Part shown: in pieces, positions 3,726 through 41,080 of the stretch
Numbering within the stretch: position 1 is the stretch's first letter
How the letters are laid out: each line of letters starts with the position of its first letter
Source of the DNA: an uncultured Planctomycetia bacterium
GTDB taxonomy: Bacteria > Planctomycetota > Phycisphaerae > FEN-1346 > JAACEH01
Length of the DNA: 64,000 nt
Assembly: GCA_903929765.1 (NCBI GenBank)
Contig: CAIYVX010000044.1
Span: 1 to 64,000, forward strand
Direction of reading: 5' to 3'
Made by a program: the position numbers and the translations under genes
Notes under the pieces: generated by a model
Told to the model about the DNA's origin: nothing
Databases searched by the model: none
The model's input: the letters and a program-made list of their open reading frames with translations, nothing else

Positions 3726-3876
3726 GAAATCCTCCAAAAACGGGTTATGAAAACAGGCTTCAGACCTAAGGCTTCAGACTTCAGGAACAGCAAAAGAAAC
3801 AACAACGGCAACGCCAAGCGGAAAACGGCCTTTGATAACAGCGTGGCTGCAAGCAGCCACCCTACATAACGACACG
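3726..3876. repeat. Heptamer tract plus D-family REP-like hairpin
   Basis: A degenerate heptamer tract (CTTCAGAC/CTTCAGG units, 3751-3783) is followed by a D-family element (3809-3867). The element has a conserved lead-in AAGCGGAAAACGGC, then the hairpin GTGGCTGC AA GCAGCCAC (3843-3860) and the constant tail CCTACAT. Read on the minus strand this is GTAG at the 5' foot of a hairpin, the arrangement of classical REP elements. Confidence 0.8.
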
Positions 3877-8047: not shown

Positions 8048-8465
8048 GGAATTCGATTCCTATGTGCGTTGCCGGTTTCAACCGCCGGGGCGACGACAAC
8101 GACAACAACAACAGCGTCCCCCAGCAGTGCTGGGGGCTTCAAAAGAAGAAACAACAAAAGAAACAACGGCAAACGGCAAGCATTATACTTGAGCGTCTTC
8201 CGTTCATGGCCCGTCTTCGCCGGACCATGCCACCCACCGTTATGGTTTTTTCAACAACAGAAGAAGAAACAACAACACGGGCGACATATATGTCGCCCCT
8301 ACGAACGGCAAAAGAAACAACAAACAACAACCGGACAGGGTAGAACCCTGTCCCTACGAAAGAAAAAGAAGAAGAAGAAACAACAGCCGGGCGACCCATG
8401 GGTCGCCCCTACGAACGGCGACAGAAACAACAAACAAAACAGCCGGACAGGGTAGAACCCTGTCC
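8048..8465. repeat. Dense repeat spacer with four F-family REP-like hairpins
   Basis: In order: E-family hairpin (8114-8141), B-family hairpin (8205-8235) and four F-family elements with different arms but the same CTACG tail. These are GGGCGACATA/TATGTCGCCC (8279-8306), GGACAGGG/CCCTGTCC (8333-8358), GGGCGACCCA/TGGGTCGCCC (8389-8416) and GGACAGGG/CCCTGTCC (8445-8469). Arms vary while pairing is kept. The CTAC of the last copy contains the argG stop codon. No gene is visible in these 418 bases. Confidence 0.85.
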
Positions 8466-9701
8466 CTACGGTTTACGTTTCTTCCCGGCGGCGCGGGCCT
8501 GGGCGTAGACTTTCATGGGCAGGCCGAAGCAGCGGATGAAGCCGCCGGCGTCGGACGGGTTGTAGTCGCCGCCCATGGTGAAACTGGCCATGCCCTGGGA
8601 GTACAAAGAATAGGGGCTTTTGACGCCGGCGGGGAGGACGCTGCCTTTATAGAGCTTGACGCGGGCTGTGCCGGTGACGAATTCCTGCGTGGTGTTGACG
8701 AAAGAGTCGAGGGCGGCGCGGAGCGGGTGGAACCACTTGCCGTTGTAGACGAGTTCGGCGTATTTGTGAGCGACGAGTTCCTTGTAGTGGGCCAGGTCGC
8801 GCTCGAGGCAGAGCGATTCCAACATGCGATGGGCTTTGTAGAGAATCGTGCCGGCGGGGGTTTCGTAGACGCCGCGACTCTTGATGCCGACCAGGCGGTT
8901 CTCGACGAGGTCGGCGTGGCCGACGCCGTGGAGGCCGCCGATTTTGTTGAGGGCGATCATGATCTCGACGCCAGACAGGGCTTTGCCGTTGACGGCGACG
9001 GGGATGCCCTTTTGGAAGTCGATGGTGACGTAGGCGGCCTTGGCGGGGGCTTTTTCGATGGTGCTGGAAATGCCCCAGGCCTGGTCGAGCGGCTCGTTCC
9101 AGGGGTCTTCGAGTTCCGCCCCTTCGTGGCTCAGGTGCCAGAGGTTGCCGTCCTCGCTGTAGATCTTTTTCTTGGTCTGGCGAATCGGAATGTTGTGGGC
9201 TTTGGCATAATCAATGGCGGACTCGCGGCTGGTGAGCGTCCAGCGGGGATCGCGCCAGGGGACGATGACCTGGAGGTCGGGGGCGAGGGCCATGTAGGTC
9301 AACTCGAAGCGGACCTGGTCGTTGCCCTTGCCGGTGGCCCCGTGAGCGAGGGCGTCGGCTCCGAATTTTCTCGCCGCAGCAACTTGACGTGCTGCAATCA
9401 GCGGGCGGGCGATGCTGGTGCCCAACATATAATCCTGCTCGTAGACCGCGCCGGCTTTGAGCATGGGCCAGAGAAAGTCTTCGACGAAGGTCTGGCGGAG
9501 GTCTTCGACGACGATCTCCTTAGCGCCGCACAGCTTGGCCTTCTGGCGGACGCCTTCGAGTTCGACGCCTTGTCCGAGATCGGCGGCATAGCAGATGACC
9601 TCGCAGCCGTAGTTTTCGCGGAGCCAGGGAAGGATGACGGAAGTGTCGAGGCCTCCGCTGTAGGCGAGGACGACGCGGGAGATTTTTTTGGGTTGGGACA
9701 T
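8466..9701 (-). CDS. argG: Argininosuccinate synthase
   Basis: Condenses citrulline and aspartate with ATP in arginine synthesis. The 411-residue protein carries the PP-loop YSGGLDTS (14-21), [13 protein letters not shown], the [14 protein letters not shown] region and a C-terminal [13 protein letters not shown] stretch typical of the family. The start at 9701 has AAAGG about 7 bases upstream; a longer frame would add only hydrophobic read-through of an AT-rich repeat. The gene ends ...KRKP-TAG, with the TAG inside the GTAG foot of an F-family repeat hairpin. argH is not in the window. Confidence 0.95.
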
Positions 9702-9890
9702 GGGAGAACCTTTCGTAAAAGAATTAAAAATTAAAAATGCAAAATTAAAAATTAGAAGCAGAAGAAACAGAAGCAACGGCAACGCCAAGCGGAAAACAGC
9801 ATTTTATTTTTGGTGCGTGCAAGCACGCACCCTACATTATTTGCGGACAGTTTTTCTTGCATGGCCACGCAAGCGTGGACCATGCCACCC
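9702..9890. repeat. Repeat mosaic between argG and leuA
   Basis: AT-rich tract of GAATTAAAAATTAAAAATGC type (9719-9755), a D-family element (9782-9838) with hairpin GGTGCGTGC AA GCACGCACC (9812-9831) and tail CTACAT, and a C-family hairpin (9860-9890) that ends exactly one base before the leuA stop codon. Confidence 0.8.
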
Positions 9891-17325: not shown

Positions 17326-17522
17326 AGCCAGTAAATGCAAAATTAAAAATGCAAAATTAAAAATTGAAGAAGAAAAAGAAGCAACAACAGGTTAGAGAGA
17401 TTTAGGAGCAACCGGTGCACCCTCACCCTACCCTCTTCCTCAAGGGGGAGGGGTGAAGAAGCAACGGCAAAACAGCAGGGCAGAGATAAACTCTGCCCCT
17501 ACGAACAACAAAAGAAGAAACA
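17326..17522. repeat. Repeat leader in front of mutL
   Basis: AATGCAAAATTAAAAATGC tract (17334-17369), A-family element (17417-17458) and F-family element (17478-17506, GGGCAGAG/CTCTGCCC with CTACGAAC). The A-rich string after it runs right up to the mutL ATG without a Shine-Dalgarno sequence. Confidence 0.8.
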
Positions 17523-19469
17523 ATGGGCGTGATACATAGACTCGATCCGCATTTGGTGAACCAGATCGCTGCGGGCGAGGTGATTGAACGTCCGGCGAGC
17601 GTGGTAAAGGAGTTGATGGAAAATGCGCTGGACGCGGAGGCGGCGCAGATCGACGTGGCGGTGGAGGCGGGGGGCGGGAAGCTGATTCGGGTGCAGGATA
17701 ACGGCGGCGGGATGGCGGCGGAGGACCTGGTGCTGGCGGTGGCGAGCCACGCGACGAGCAAGCTGGCGACGAGCGAGGATCTGGATCGGATCGGGACGCT
17801 GGGGTTCCGGGGCGAGGCGCTGGCGTCGGTGGGGTCGGTGAGCGAGATGACGGTGCGGTCGCGGCGGCCGGGCGACGTGGAAGGGCACGAAATCGCGGTG
17901 GCGGCGGGGAAGGCGGATGAGGTCCGCGTGGCGGGGGGTCCGCCGGGGACGATCATCGAGGTGCGGAACCTGTTTTACAACATTCCGGCGCGGCGGAAAT
18001 TTCTGAAGAGCGAGGCGACGGAGCTGGGGCACGTGGTGGAGGCGGTGGCGAACCTGGCCTTGGCCTATCCGCAGGTGGCGATGCGGCTGACGCACAACGG
18101 GCGGCTGGTACATGATCTGCCGGCGGCGCAGGGGGTGCGGGAGCGGGTGGCGGCGTTTTACGGGGCGGACCTGGCGGCGGGGCTGATCGAGGTGCGTGGT
18201 GATTCGCCGGCGGGGCAATTGTGGGGGCTGGTGGCGCCGCCGTCGGAAAGCCGGGCGTCGACAAAATGGCAATATCTATACGTCAACGGGCGATATGTGC
18301 GCGACCGGTCGCTGCTGCACGCGGTGCGGGAGGCGTATCGCGGGCTGGTGGAGGCGAACCGGCAGCCGGTGGTGTTCCTGTACTTGACGGTGCCGCCGGA
18401 AGACGTGGACGTGAACGTCCATCCGAGCAAGATTGAGGTGCGGCTGCGGAACGGGCAACAGATTTATCGGGAAATTCTGGGGACGCTGCGGGAGAAGTTT
18501 CTGACTTCGGATTTGGCGCCGCGGGTGAATGCGGGGTTTGAATCGACCGGCGGCGCGGCAGGGCCGCGACTGAGTTTGCCGGCGGCGGCGTGCGGGGTTT
18601 CAGTTTCAGAAGAAGAGCGGCAGGAGCGGGTACGGGCGTCGCTGGCGGATTTTTTCAGGCGGCCGGCGGAGAAGGTGCAGCCGAGGTTTTCGTATACGCC
18701 GGGTTCGAGCGGGGGCGGCGGTCAGAGCCATAACCCCTCACCCGGCCCTTCGGGCCACCCTCTCCCGAAGGAGAGGGGTGAAGAAGAAGAAACAACAACC
18801 GGACAGGGCAGAGCCCTGTCCCTACAAAAGGAAGAAGAAACGGCTGAGCCGCGGCGGCGGGTGTTGCAACTTTACAATACTTATCTGGTGGCCGAGACCG
18901 AGGACGGGATGTTGATCGTGGATCAGCACGCACTGCATGAGCGGGTGCTGTATGAGGAGTTGAAGCGGCGGATTGAGGCGGGACCGCTGGAGAGTCAGCG
19001 GCTGCTGATTCCGGCGGTGCTGGACGTGACGGAGGGCGAGCGGGCGTTCCTGGAGGAACATCGCGGGCAGTTGGTGCGGCTGGGGATTGAGTTCGAATTG
19101 TTCGGATCGCAGGCGGTGGGGATTCAGGCGTTTCCGGCGCTCCTGGCGACGCGGACGCCGCCGGAACGGGTGGTGCGGGACCTGCTGGATTGGGCGGCAG
19201 GGCGCGGGGCGGCGAAGCCGGCGGTGGAAGACGTGGTGGATGAGTTGCTGCACCGGATGGCCTGCCGGGGGGCGGTGAAGAGCGGGGAGGTATTGGCGCC
19301 GGAGGAGATCGAGGCGCTCCTGGCGACGCGAAATGTGGGGGAACAGACGGCGACATGCCCGCACGGGCGACCGACGACGCTGGTGCTGACGCGGGAAGAG
19401 ATTGAGCGGCAGTTCAAGCGGGATTATCGGAGTACGGAAGCAAAGGAGGATGAGACGATACCGTTTTAA
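17523..19469 (+). CDS. mutL: DNA mismatch repair protein MutL (endonuclease type)
   Basis: The 648-residue protein has the GHKL ATPase N-terminus (about 1-340: NQIAAGEVIERPASVVKELMENALDA, DNGGGM, GFRGEAL) and a C-terminal dimerisation/nuclease domain (about 445-648) with the endonuclease motif DQHA-x2-E-x4-E (467-478), CRGAVKSGE and CPHGRPT. It is therefore a nicking MutL of the MutH-independent type. The linker (residues 404-440) is encoded by an A-family plus an F-family intergenic repeat block inserted in frame. The start fits the family, but the 15 bases before it are A-rich repeat spacer with no ribosome site. Confidence 0.94.
   Translation: MGVIHRLDPHLVNQIAAGEVIERPASVVKELMENALDAEAAQIDVAVEAGGGKLIRVQDNGGGMAAEDLVLAVASHATSKLATSEDLDRIGTLGFRGEALASVGSVSEMTVRSRRPGDVEGHEIAVAAGKADEVRVAGGPPGTIIEVRNLFYNIPARRKFLKSEATELGHVVEAVANLALAYPQVAMRLTHNGRLVHDLPAAQGVRERVAAFYGADLAAGLIEVRGDSPAGQLWGLVAPPSESRASTKWQYLYVNGRYVRDRSLLHAVREAYRGLVEANRQPVVFLYLTVPPEDVDVNVHPSKIEVRLRNGQQIYREILGTLREKFLTSDLAPRVNAGFESTGGAAGPRLSLPAAACGVSVSEEERQERVRASLADFFRRPAEKVQPRFSYTPGSSGGGGQSHNPSPGPSGHPLPKERGEEEETTTGQGRALSLQKEEETAEPRRRVLQLYNTYLVAETEDGMLIVDQHALHERVLYEELKRRIEAGPLESQRLLIPAVLDVTEGERAFLEEHRGQLVRLGIEFELFGSQAVGIQAFPALLATRTPPERVVRDLLDWAAGRGAAKPAVEDVVDELLHRMACRGAVKSGEVLAPEEIEALLATRNVGEQTATCPHGRPTTLVLTREEIERQFKRDYRSTEAKEDETIPF
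18734..18825 (+). repeat. Intergenic repeat block inside the mutL reading frame
   Basis: A-family element (18734-18781, CCCCTCACCC ... GGGGTGAAG), A-rich linker AAGAAGAAACAACAACC, and F-family hairpin GGACAGGGC/GCCCTGTCC with CTAC tail (18801-18825). Composition and order match spacer copies elsewhere. It encodes about 30-36 residues (SPGPSGHPLPKERGEEE and so on) in the low-complexity linker without disrupting the frame. Confidence 0.9.
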
Positions 19470-19747
19470 GAAGGCTTCAGACCTCAGGCTTCAGACTTCA
19501 GGAACAACAGCAACAACAGCATTCCCCGATGAACGGTATTCATTCATGGCCCGTCTTCGCCGGACCATGCCACCCGCCATTTTCCTTGATGGAATAACTG
19601 AACAACAACAGCCCATGATGAAGGGTCATTATTCATGGCCCGTCTTCGCCGGACCAGGCCACCCGGCGGCTGGGGTATGGGATGAAACAACAACGGCAAC
19701 ACCATGCGGAAAACGGCATTTGATGTTGGCGGTTGTTACCAACCGCC
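19470..19747. repeat. Repeat mosaic between mutL and the HD gene
   Basis: Heptamer tract (19473-19502), two B-family hairpins (19545-19575 and 19634-19664) and a D-family element (19693-19753) with hairpin GGCGGTTG TTAC CAACCGCC (19728-19747). Its CTAC tail holds the stop codon of the convergent HD gene. Confidence 0.8.
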
Positions 19748-21328
19748 CTACATGGCGGTCAGGCGGCGGGCGAAGGCGGGGGGGATGGCGAGGCGGCGGC
19801 AGAAGGTGTCGGCGATTTGGGAGACGAGGCCGGGGCGAGAAACGGCGGCGGGGTGGACGAAGGCGAAGGCTTTCCAGAGGCCCTGGTATTTGCGGTTGAG
19901 AAGCTCGGCTTCGTCGTGGAAATCGGGGTGGTCGGAGAGAGGAACGATGCGGTTTTCCTCGAAGCGGACGGGGGCGGCAATGGCCTTGGCCTGCATCTTG
20001 CGCGGGGGGCAATAGACAATGACGCCGTGGGGTCCGAGGCCGGTGAGGGCGGAGAGTTCGGCCTGAAGATCGAAGAGGCGGCGACGACCGTCGGGGCGGC
20101 CGCGGAAAAAGTCGACGAATTTTTCGGGGTCGCCGATTTCGCGGGCGAGAGGTTCGGTGAGGACGGCGGCGGGGATGTAAAGTTGGCGATTGAGGAGGGC
20201 TTCGCCGAGGTCGCGGGATTCGGCGGCGCCGCTCAGGCGGCCGATCATGGCCTCGTCGCTGAGGGCGGGATTGATAACGGAATCGGGATCGTCGTAGGGG
20301 TTGGTGTCGCCGGGGAGGCCGCGCGCGGCCAGGCCGCGGGCGAGCATGGCGGAGGCGGCGACCTTGTTCTTGTGGTAGTAGACGCGTTCGGCCATGGAGT
20401 AGCGGAGGCGCATGAGGTTCATGATTTCGGAGGTGATGTCGATGCGGGCGTAGCCGCGCGGGCTGAGGACGTCGAGGGCGAGGCGGGGAGCGCCGGAGGG
20501 GCCGTCGCGGCCGATGAAGAAATAGTGGAGGAGGCGCTGGTCGAAGTCGCCGCGAACGCCGGTGTGGAAGAGGTCGCGGGCGGTGTAGTCGAGGAGGTCG
20601 GCGGAGACGGTGCCGGAGACGATGTCGGACATGAAAGGTTGAAAGAGGCCGCGCGCGGCGAGATCGCGGTAGGCGACGGCGGCGCGGCCGAGGAAGTCGA
20701 CATGGGCGGCGCGGTCGGGCCGTGAGGCAGCGCTGTCACCGGCGACGGCGAGCAGGTCGGGGAAGGAGCGCGGGGGCGAGGCGTCGGCGTCTTCGCGGAA
20801 GGCGAGGGTGAGGTAGACGAGCCAGCGGAGGCGCGAGTTGTCGAGGCCGGGGATGTAGGGGCGGGGCCGGTCGAAGACGCGGGCGACGGAGCTGCGCGGG
20901 TCGAAGAGAAGGAAGAAGAGGCGGGGACTATCGAGGGCGTCGTGCTTGAGGTAGATGTCCTGGAGTTCGTCTTCGAGGGTGTGGCCGAAGGGGATGTGGG
21001 TGAGGTCGTGGAGAAGAGCGACGGCAGAGACGATTTCGGCGAGGTCGGCGGTGGTCAGGCCCCCCTGCCCCGAGATGAACGGCGAGGCCGGGAGGGGCAG
21101 GCCGAGGCGGGCGTGGTTGGCATGGACGTGGCGGAGGATTTCGCGGCTGACCCAATAGGTGCCGACGGCGTGGGCGAAACGGGTGTGGGTGGCGCCGCGG
21201 TAGACGAGGTGGGCGAAGCCGAGTTGCATGATGCGGCCGAGGCGCTGGAATTCGGGGGTGTCGATGAGGTCGGCGGCAAGTTCGGAGAGGAGAATGTCGC
21301 CGTGGACGGGGTCGCGGTAGAGGCGCAT
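19748..21328 (-). CDS. HD-domain phosphohydrolase (SAMHD1/YdhJ-like)
   Basis: A 526-residue protein beginning RDPVHGDILLSELAADLIDTPEFQRL, the signature of deoxynucleotide triphosphohydrolase-like HD proteins. The metal site is complete: H53 in TRFAH, then LLHDLTHIPFGH (H107, D108, H111, H116). A second conserved stretch, DLLDYTARDLFHTGV, follows. Known relatives hydrolyse dNTPs or other phosphates, but the substrate here is unknown. The stop codon (ATG TAG) is the GTAG foot of a D-family hairpin. No operon partner is evident. Confidence 0.85.
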   Translation of the reverse strand: MRLYRDPVHGDILLSELAADLIDTPEFQRLGRIMQLGFAHLVYRGATHTRFAHAVGTYWVSREILRHVHANHARLGLPLPASPFISGQGGLTTADLAEIVSAVALLHDLTHIPFGHTLEDELQDIYLKHDALDSPRLFFLLFDPRSSVARVFDRPRPYIPGLDNSRLRWLVYLTLAFREDADASPPRSFPDLLAVAGDSAASRPDRAAHVDFLGRAAVAYRDLAARGLFQPFMSDIVSGTVSADLLDYTARDLFHTGVRGDFDQRLLHYFFIGRDGPSGAPRLALDVLSPRGYARIDITSEIMNLMRLRYSMAERVYYHKNKVAASAMLARGLAARGLPGDTNPYDDPDSVINPALSDEAMIGRLSGAAESRDLGEALLNRQLYIPAAVLTEPLAREIGDPEKFVDFFRGRPDGRRRLFDLQAELSALTGLGPHGVIVYCPPRKMQAKAIAAPVRFEENRIVPLSDHPDFHDEAELLNRKYQGLWKAFAFVHPAAVSRPGLVSQIADTFCRRLAIPPAFARRLTAM

Positions 21329-23506: not shown

Positions 23507-23886
23507 TCCGTAATTGTATCTCTATCGACAATCGGGACTTGCGAATTCAGCTTTCACGGTTCCGAGGTCGCGCGGCGTCAGGAGGAAGGGCATCATACCT
23601 GACCGGGCGGGAAGAGTCAAATCAAACGGCAGAGGACAGTGGGCAGTGGGCAGTGGGCAGTGGGCAGTGGGCAGTGGGCAGTGGGCAGTGGGCAGTGAAA
23701 AAAAAAGAAACAGAAACAGCCACCCCCGGCGATATGGGGGAAACAGGTACACCCTCACCCTACCCCTGAAGGGGGAGGGGTGAAGAAGCAACAGACTTGG
23801 ATGGTCGAACGGTCTTCATTCATGGCCCGTCTGCGCCGGACCATGCCACCCACCGTTTAGGGTGGACAAAGAAAAAACAGCAACGC
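23507..23886. repeat. Repeat spacer with CAGTGGG tandem array
   Basis: From 23637 to 23697 the heptamer CAGTGGG is repeated 8 times perfectly plus a partial copy. Then come an A-family element (23750-23784) and a B-family hairpin (23820-23851, GTCTGCGCCGG variant). No gene is visible in about 380 bases. Confidence 0.85.
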
Positions 23887-40384: not shown

Positions 40385-40521
40385 GAGTCACCGCCAGCAA
40401 AGGCCCGGAGCGTAGAAGCGGGGGTAAAGCCGGAGGGCGTCGCCGGTAACAAACGGCGTCGCGCCGCGGCCAGATTGGCCCCTTCAGCGTCCCAGGCACG
40501 GAGACGAAAACGAAGGTACGA

Positions 40522-40686
40522 CAAGGCAGGTATCCTGGCTTGCGGGTCAACCTCGAATCGCGCCTTCCGGGAGGAAAGACGAGTCAATCTCCCGTGGCAA
40601 CCGCGATTGTCGTCGCCGCATACAGTGACGGCCTCGCGCCGGCGTCGCACCGGCTTCCCTGCAAAGCGGCGCCAAGCCGCTCATGG
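40522..40686 (-). promoter_or_regulatory. Cobalamin riboswitch upstream of the pseudopilin gene
   Basis: Read on the minus strand, the B12-box GCCAGGATACCTGCC (40540-40525), the core GGGAAGCCGGTGCGACGCCG (40659-40640) and GCCACGGG (40598-40591) occur in the order and spacing of the adenosylcobalamin-type aptamer. The expression platform lies between 40522 and the start at 40384; no terminator was obvious, so control of translation is possible. Confidence 0.88.
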
Positions 40687-40691
40687 ACGGT

Positions 40692-40757: not shown

Positions 40758-40786
40758 TTGACGGCAGGGTAAAACTGTTGTATAGT
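40758..40786 (+). promoter_or_regulatory. Promoter of the plus-strand cobalamin riboswitch
   Basis: TTGACG (40758-40763), 17 bases, TATAGT (40781-40786). The two divergent -35 boxes are 37 bases apart. Confidence 0.78.
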
Positions 40787-40792
40787 GCGGGA

Positions 40793-40980
40793 AGTAAATC
40801 GCAGGTGCCCTGAAAATCGGCCGTTGAGCCGGGGATCGGGGTGAAAAGGGAAGCCGGTGAGAGTCCGGCACGGTCGCGCCGCTGTAATCGGCAGATCGAC
40901 CCGCGGAGAAGCCACTGTCCTGGCACAGGACGGGAAGGCGCGGGTCGGTAAAGCCGAGAGTCAGAAGACCTGCCTGCGAC
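40793..40980 (+). promoter_or_regulatory. Cobalamin riboswitch upstream of the PEP-CTERM gene
   Basis: A complete B12 aptamer: AGGTGCCC (40803-40810), GGGAAGCCGGTGAGAGTCCG (40848-40867), CGCCGCTGTAATCGG (40877-40891), GCCACTG (40911-40917), GGACGGGAAGGCG (40928-40940) and the B12 box GTCAGAAGACCTGCCTG (40960-40976). It is followed by a 13-bp intrinsic terminator, consistent with transcriptional off-switching by cobamide. Confidence 0.96.
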
Positions 40981-41080
40981 GGTTACGAGCGTCTTCGCCC
41001 GAGAGACAGCGTAACGAAAGTTGCGGCAGTCGGCCCATCAGCGCACGGCGGGCCGGAGGAGTTTCCCAGACTTTCGTCGG

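Follow-up and report, generated by a model that had tools for sequence, protein, structure and literature searches.

REP elements consist of a GT[AG]G foot followed by a hairpin, and REPtrons, which combine them with RAYT genes, reportedly do not seem to move as single units (PMC6006769). Their dissemination has been described as poorly understood (PMC8266576). REPs can also lie inside genes. In Opitutus terrae, Rickettsia conorii and others, GTAG and CGTC REPs occur in frame within coding sequences, including the repair genes uvrA, uvrB, recBCD and polA, and it has been proposed that such intragenic copies are tolerated in linkers or loops (PMC3733652). The Rickettsia palindromic elements (RPEs) terminate in CGTC, and REPs of the CGTC kind have no dedicated transposase (PMC3733652). 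For transposons of the IS200/IS605 group, orientation tracks replication through use of the single-stranded lagging-strand template (PMC5371812).

Here we describe a repeat block inside the mutL gene of an uncultured Planctomycetia bacterium. The block lies in a window of 64,000 nucleotides, the whole stretch of DNA that was analysed, and we followed its constituent families through the rest of the genome. It is a further instance of known in-frame REPs (compare PMC3733652). New with respect to the literature searched are composites of several families joined by A-rich linkers within proteins, a RAYT gene with REPs inside an essential gene, and single REPs whose orientation follows replication.

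The repeat block inside mutL

MutL residues 404-440 (within HNPSPGPSGHPLPKERGEEEETTTGQGRALSLQKEEET) are encoded by positions 18734-18840, where the frame is open, and lie between the Pfam domains DNA_mis_repair (residues 210-325) and MutL_C (residues 449-589) found by Pfam scan. The sequence-only reading had proposed that a repeat is translated here between the ATPase and endonuclease domains of MutL. ORF and Pfam evidence agree with this, and with the ORF open through the whole block the repeat is now protein-coding DNA. Alignment with relatives shows the ATPase motifs and the DQHALHERVLYEE endonuclease-type motif to be intact. A chance origin of the block is excluded, since its 93-base pattern matches once in the window and never in 100 shuffles, and blastn of the block against its own genome gives 52 matches, itself included, most of them outside mutL. 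In an AlphaFold2 model built from an alignment of 16 MutLs, the block falls within a segment of pLDDT below 50 (residues 380-441) flanked by two well-modelled domains. As modelled, the block forms part of a disordered stretch that links the ATPase and endonuclease domains; its effect on the protein is most likely close to neutral.

Table 1. Coordinates of the mutL block, its neighbouring spacer blocks and the valS ORF.
Feature	Position	Strand	Basis
mutL, 648 aa, host gene of the block	17523..19469	+	ORF, Pfam, alignment with relatives
A-family element, nested palindrome CCCTCACCC-GGCCC.TTC.GGGCC-ACCCTCTCC.CGAA.GGAGAGGGGTGAAG	18734..18783	+	sequence, genome copies, fold
Linker, A-rich, T-free	18784..18799	+	sequence
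F-family REP hairpin; reverse complement is GTAG + GGACAGGGC.TCT.GCCCTGTCC	18800..18825	+	identity at other loci, fold
A-rich tail of the block	18826..18840	+	sequence
Spacer block 5' of mutL: AAAATTAAAAATT tract, linker, A element, linker, F-type hairpin (GGGCAGA..TCTGCCCCTAC), linker	17330..17520	+	
Spacer block 3' of mutL: CTTCAG heptamer tract, two H2-type REPs, G-type REP, linkers	19470..19750	+	
valS ORF, 1308 aa; RAYT and REPs in frame	L096:11100-15023 = G000 C82:71100-75023		

Copies of the block elsewhere in the genome differ in how closely they resemble it. The closest full-length second copy is 91% identical (contig C63, position 2874), and the A part reaches 98% identity (C82:63271). 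Contigs C63, C23 and C39 carry the 26-base F hairpin without a single difference, which with mutL makes four loci. The block had been described as exactly what spacers contain; this holds for the F hairpin but is slightly too strong for the A part and for the block as a whole. Five loci, mutL included, have the parts in the order A-linker-F, and their flanks are unrelated. The majority of A, F, H and S copies are single or in other combinations. The proposal that the elements are mobile or copied as composite blocks thus gains from these five loci and from REPs that flank RAYT genes (see below), but most copies are not composite.

The linker sequence is shared by none of the 12 relatives compared, the closest of which belongs to the same family (MutL 65% identical). 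The common ancestral linker that the sequence-only reading had set against an insertion therefore did not appear in the alignment. The stretch from NVHP to DQHA measures 167 residues here and 145-182 in the 12 relatives, and alignment with them revealed no net length gain at the linker. Because the relatives' linkers are equally long, we infer a net insertion at mutL rather than demonstrate it: what stands of the claimed insertion is repeat DNA without counterpart in relatives. To judge from the sequence comparison, the block may have taken the place of a hypervariable linker or filled it. The spacer block 3' of mutL likewise has no counterpart in the homologous spacer of one relative, G001.

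Element families, RAYT genes and inserts in other genes

Most of the families share one architecture. Folding of the complementary strand showed that F, G, H1, H2, S and N each have an unpaired foot followed by a hairpin. The foot is GTAG in F and G, GTGG in H and N, and GAAG in S; the A element, a nested palindrome, has no clear foot. F, G, H and N thereby carry the GT[AG]G foot that defines REP elements, with F resembling the G type (GTAGGG), and S and A are REP-like only. The families are dispersed and present in high copy, with 68 H elements genome-wide and 189 A, 72 F and 56 S elements in 1.79 Mb. H stems show compensatory changes (CATGG/CCATG to CGTGG/CCACG, CCCG/CGGA to CCTG/CAGA, and also CCGG/CCGA), and no copy of H was found in the 40 relatives among the 41 genomes searched, this one included. 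G001 has GTGG-type REPs of its own (contigs C27, C2 and C17): the N pattern matches exactly at 138 places, often in inverted pairs. Its top repeat islands showed no A-rich linkers. Rfam identified only one tRNA and two cobalamin riboswitches in the window and no family at the elements. The riboswitches (40508-40691, minus strand; 40786-40993, plus strand) are divergent and about 95 bases apart.

The genome contains eight matches to Y1_Tnp (PF01797). Four RAYT genes are flanked by cognate elements, one each on contigs C59 (S), C22 (G) and C33 (H) and one at C82:54929 (J type). No RAYT was found with A or F elements, the families that make up the mutL block, on its flanks. A further RAYT lies within valS, where about 260 residues of the editing domain derive from N-type REPs and a complete RAYT, in frame, followed further on by an A element. 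All of these inserts are absent from eight relatives in alignment, and the genome yielded no other ValS. The internal RAYT matches PF01797 (E 6e-6) and PDB 4ER8, a TnpA_REP (E 5e-6), with PNHIH (the HUH motif) and a downstream Tyr aligned. By these sequence features, namely Y1_Tnp domain, HUH motif and downstream Tyr, the ORF inside valS classes as a RAYT/TnpA_REP. An AlphaFold2 model of the ValS-RAYT region has a mean pLDDT of 45, too low to be informative.

In-frame blocks are widespread. We sampled 1.79 Mb of the 3.83 Mb genome (47%) in stretches; the assembly is fragmented (116 contigs), repeat-rich and 96% complete. Self-comparison for high-copy islands yielded 859 islands and 659 blocks. 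Of these blocks, 67 are in frame inside coding ORFs, a count that holds some false positives (such as C23:88380-88625) and from which a strict frame filter left out mutL; on this count the elements are mainly extragenic, as REPs are. The block at C23:88380-88625 combines S, A and F elements immediately upstream of a fumarase-like start; its T-free linkers keep it open, so it is probably untranslated. Because of such false positives, 30 ORFs were checked against Pfam; in 25 of them, conserved domains either flank the insert on each side or extend across it. Named by their Pfam domains, these 25 include valS, uvrA, trmE/mnmE, hypF, feoB, murD, folC and nuoG, as well as a trpE-like gene, a squalene-hopene cyclase and glycosyltransferases. 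In several genes presence and absence are clean. FolC aligns with a gap of about 55-60 residues in G001 at the insert, and HypF has QRMATQAWTMPP, an H element, at the place of a short turn in PDB 3VTH. The TrpE-like protein, which shows little net gap against G001, is a weak case.

The linkers and several other tracts are not hairpins. A-rich linkers are nearly T-free (A 63%, G 20%, C 16%), a T-poverty that stems partly from the search criterion, and they show a 3-base periodicity like that of triplet repeat growth. In the window they occur in spacers, for example at 45-84, 8312-8470 and 17366-17385. Heptamer-like CTTCAG/CAGTGGG tracts and AAAATTAAAAATT tracts (3754-3785, 19471-19501, 23628-23697, 9721-9753) stand at the 5' end of many spacer blocks.

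Orientation relative to replication

Elements and linkers keep to one strand irrespective of the genes around them. From position 1 to 44045 of the window, GC skew is positive, and all typed hairpin elements, together with almost all linkers, are on the plus strand whatever the gene orientation. The window's own contig carries 90 plus and 0 minus elements over 1-50 kb and 0 plus and 8 minus elements at 90-110 kb, a flip that accompanies the skew. Typed elements are gone from about 44 kb of the window on, and the skew changes sign between 50000 and 60000, a region that is a candidate replication terminus or rearrangement boundary.

The same polarity extends across the genome sample. In the 1.79 Mb, each family other than J has 75-96% of its copies on the positive-GC-skew strand, compared with 486 of 1047 genes; the J pattern gives no orientation signal because it is self-complementary. 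As rpoB, rpoC, rpsL, tuf, atpA and atpD lie on the positive-skew strand, we take it as the leading strand. The fraction of elements on the leading strand is 0.878 (of 915), against 0.50 for a contig-flip null with a maximum of 0.81, and a rotation null also falls below the observed polarity. Counted by cluster the polarity is 324 versus 60, and by contig 32 versus 4. In 227 of 237 multi-element clusters all elements share one orientation, which is not the inverted pairing of REPINs. Inserts in genes behave alike: 40 of 46 follow the polarity, with 26 read sense and 20 antisense. Element density climbs about sevenfold with absolute GC skew, from 1.6 to 11.3 per 10 kb (Spearman 0.56). The heptamer-like and AAAATTAAAAATT tracts, not being hairpins, nevertheless have replication polarity, and A-rich tracts near repeats share that of the elements (319 of 352 on the leading strand). 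For these non-REP tracts (AAAATT, CAGTGG, linkers), common polarity is something of which RAYT gives no account.

The strand that carries the GTRG foot is the one opposite the leading strand. Since IS608 targets the lagging-strand template, the chemistry here is not that of IS608 by simple analogy. We found no report of replication polarity of REPs in the open-licence papers searched.

Origin of the blocks and relation to known systems

We consider it likely that RAYT/REP elements spread by replication-coupled single-strand transposition and are tolerated in frame in loops and linkers. The mutL block would then combine REP-type elements, small hairpins that cannot move on their own, with A-rich linkers joining them. 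Hairpins with a GTAG, GTGG or GAAG foot would be mobilised in trans by RAYT (TnpA_REP, HUH-Y1) transposases, whose activity would be the agent of spread. Travelling on single-stranded DNA at the replication fork, they would leave insertions of one polarity, presumably on the lagging side; one possibility is that REP single strands are joined into nascent lagging-strand gaps. Genes would be hit too, and the survivors would be in-frame insertions in loops or disordered linkers, aided by T-free linkers, which lack stop codons in all frames, and by elements with most of their frames open. A broader formulation strikes us as evenly balanced: that REP insertion is strand-specific and coupled to replication, records its polarity throughout the genome, in spacers and coding sequence alike, scales in density with replicational strand asymmetry, and has been active enough to place a RAYT with REPs in the only ValS and REP-coded peptides in perhaps a hundred proteins, MutL and UvrA among them.

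Other processes could produce some of these patterns. Composite blocks might be copied as units by recombination or gene conversion between repeats, not by transposition, as the A-linker-F order at five loci, with one hairpin identical in four, would suggest; the unrelated flanks of these loci and lone H-type elements in genes such as hypF make this rather unlikely. Strong polarity and a density that increases with absolute GC skew would also be expected if selection set the polarity and the elements were oriented chromosome-architecture signals (like KOPS) or terminators. This is unlikely, because the polarity is common to about ten unrelated families, low-complexity tracts included, in-gene inserts keep it whichever strand the gene is on, and compensatory stem variation speaks for structure and against a fixed motif. 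Retrotransposition of small hairpin RNAs that bear heteropolymeric A-rich tails, with a reverse transcriptase making the copies in a bacterial analogue of SINEs, would explain why A-rich, T-free tracts follow the elements in the same polarity. We rank this lower, as improbable, because no reverse transcriptase was found: genome G000, in its 96% complete assembly, has no RVT_1 match, so the repeats do not qualify as retroelements. Moreover, elements flank RAYT genes, the periodicity of the tracts resembles triplet repeat growth, and several insertions (HypF, ValS) have no A-rich tract.

Explanations that deny insertion altogether fare worse. With 116 contigs and many repeats, an assembly invites the suspicion that in-frame blocks are mis-joins or pseudogenes. 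Yet in 25 of the 30 ORFs tested the frame remains open for hundreds of residues and homology is found on either side, the insert-bearing ValS is the only valyl-tRNA synthetase found, and the catalytic motifs of MutL are intact, so we regard artefact or decay as very improbable. Scarcely credible is an ancestral MutL linker that resembles repeats by accident: its overall length is inside the relatives' range, but its sequence occurs in none of those compared, which refutes the idea at sequence level, and its DNA recurs across the genome, mostly outside mutL, with the F hairpin identical at other loci.

The in-frame blocks show how mobile non-coding repeats turn into protein sequence at large scale, essential enzymes and repair proteins included. 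The combination of many REP families, RAYT genes and a 5:1 cluster polarity is genomic evidence for replication-coupled single-strand insertion, which is now testable.

Compared with described systems, the repeats are closest to REP/BIME/REPIN elements and RAYT REPtrons (PMC2817692, PMC3116915, PMC6006769, PMC8266576), sharing the GT[AG]G foot and hairpin, RAYT genes with cognate REPs, tens to hundreds of copies and several families in one genome. They differ in being mostly single, direct REPs of one polarity with A-rich, T-free linkers instead of inverted pairs, in having an additional GAAG-foot family, and in a RAYT with REPs in frame inside valS. By description they also resemble RPEs (cited in PMC3733652), short palindromes in frame in functional proteins. 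With IS200/IS605 elements (IS608, ISDra2; PMC5371812) they share an orientation that follows replication and HUH-Y1 single-stranded DNA chemistry; those, however, are autonomous insertion sequences with left and right ends, whereas these are small non-autonomous hairpins. As in Opitutus terrae and Rickettsia conorii, in-frame insertions into genes are many and repair genes are among the targets. Unlike that case (PMC3733652), in whose description mutL is not mentioned, the insertions here include multi-family composites with linkers, and their replication polarity has been measured.
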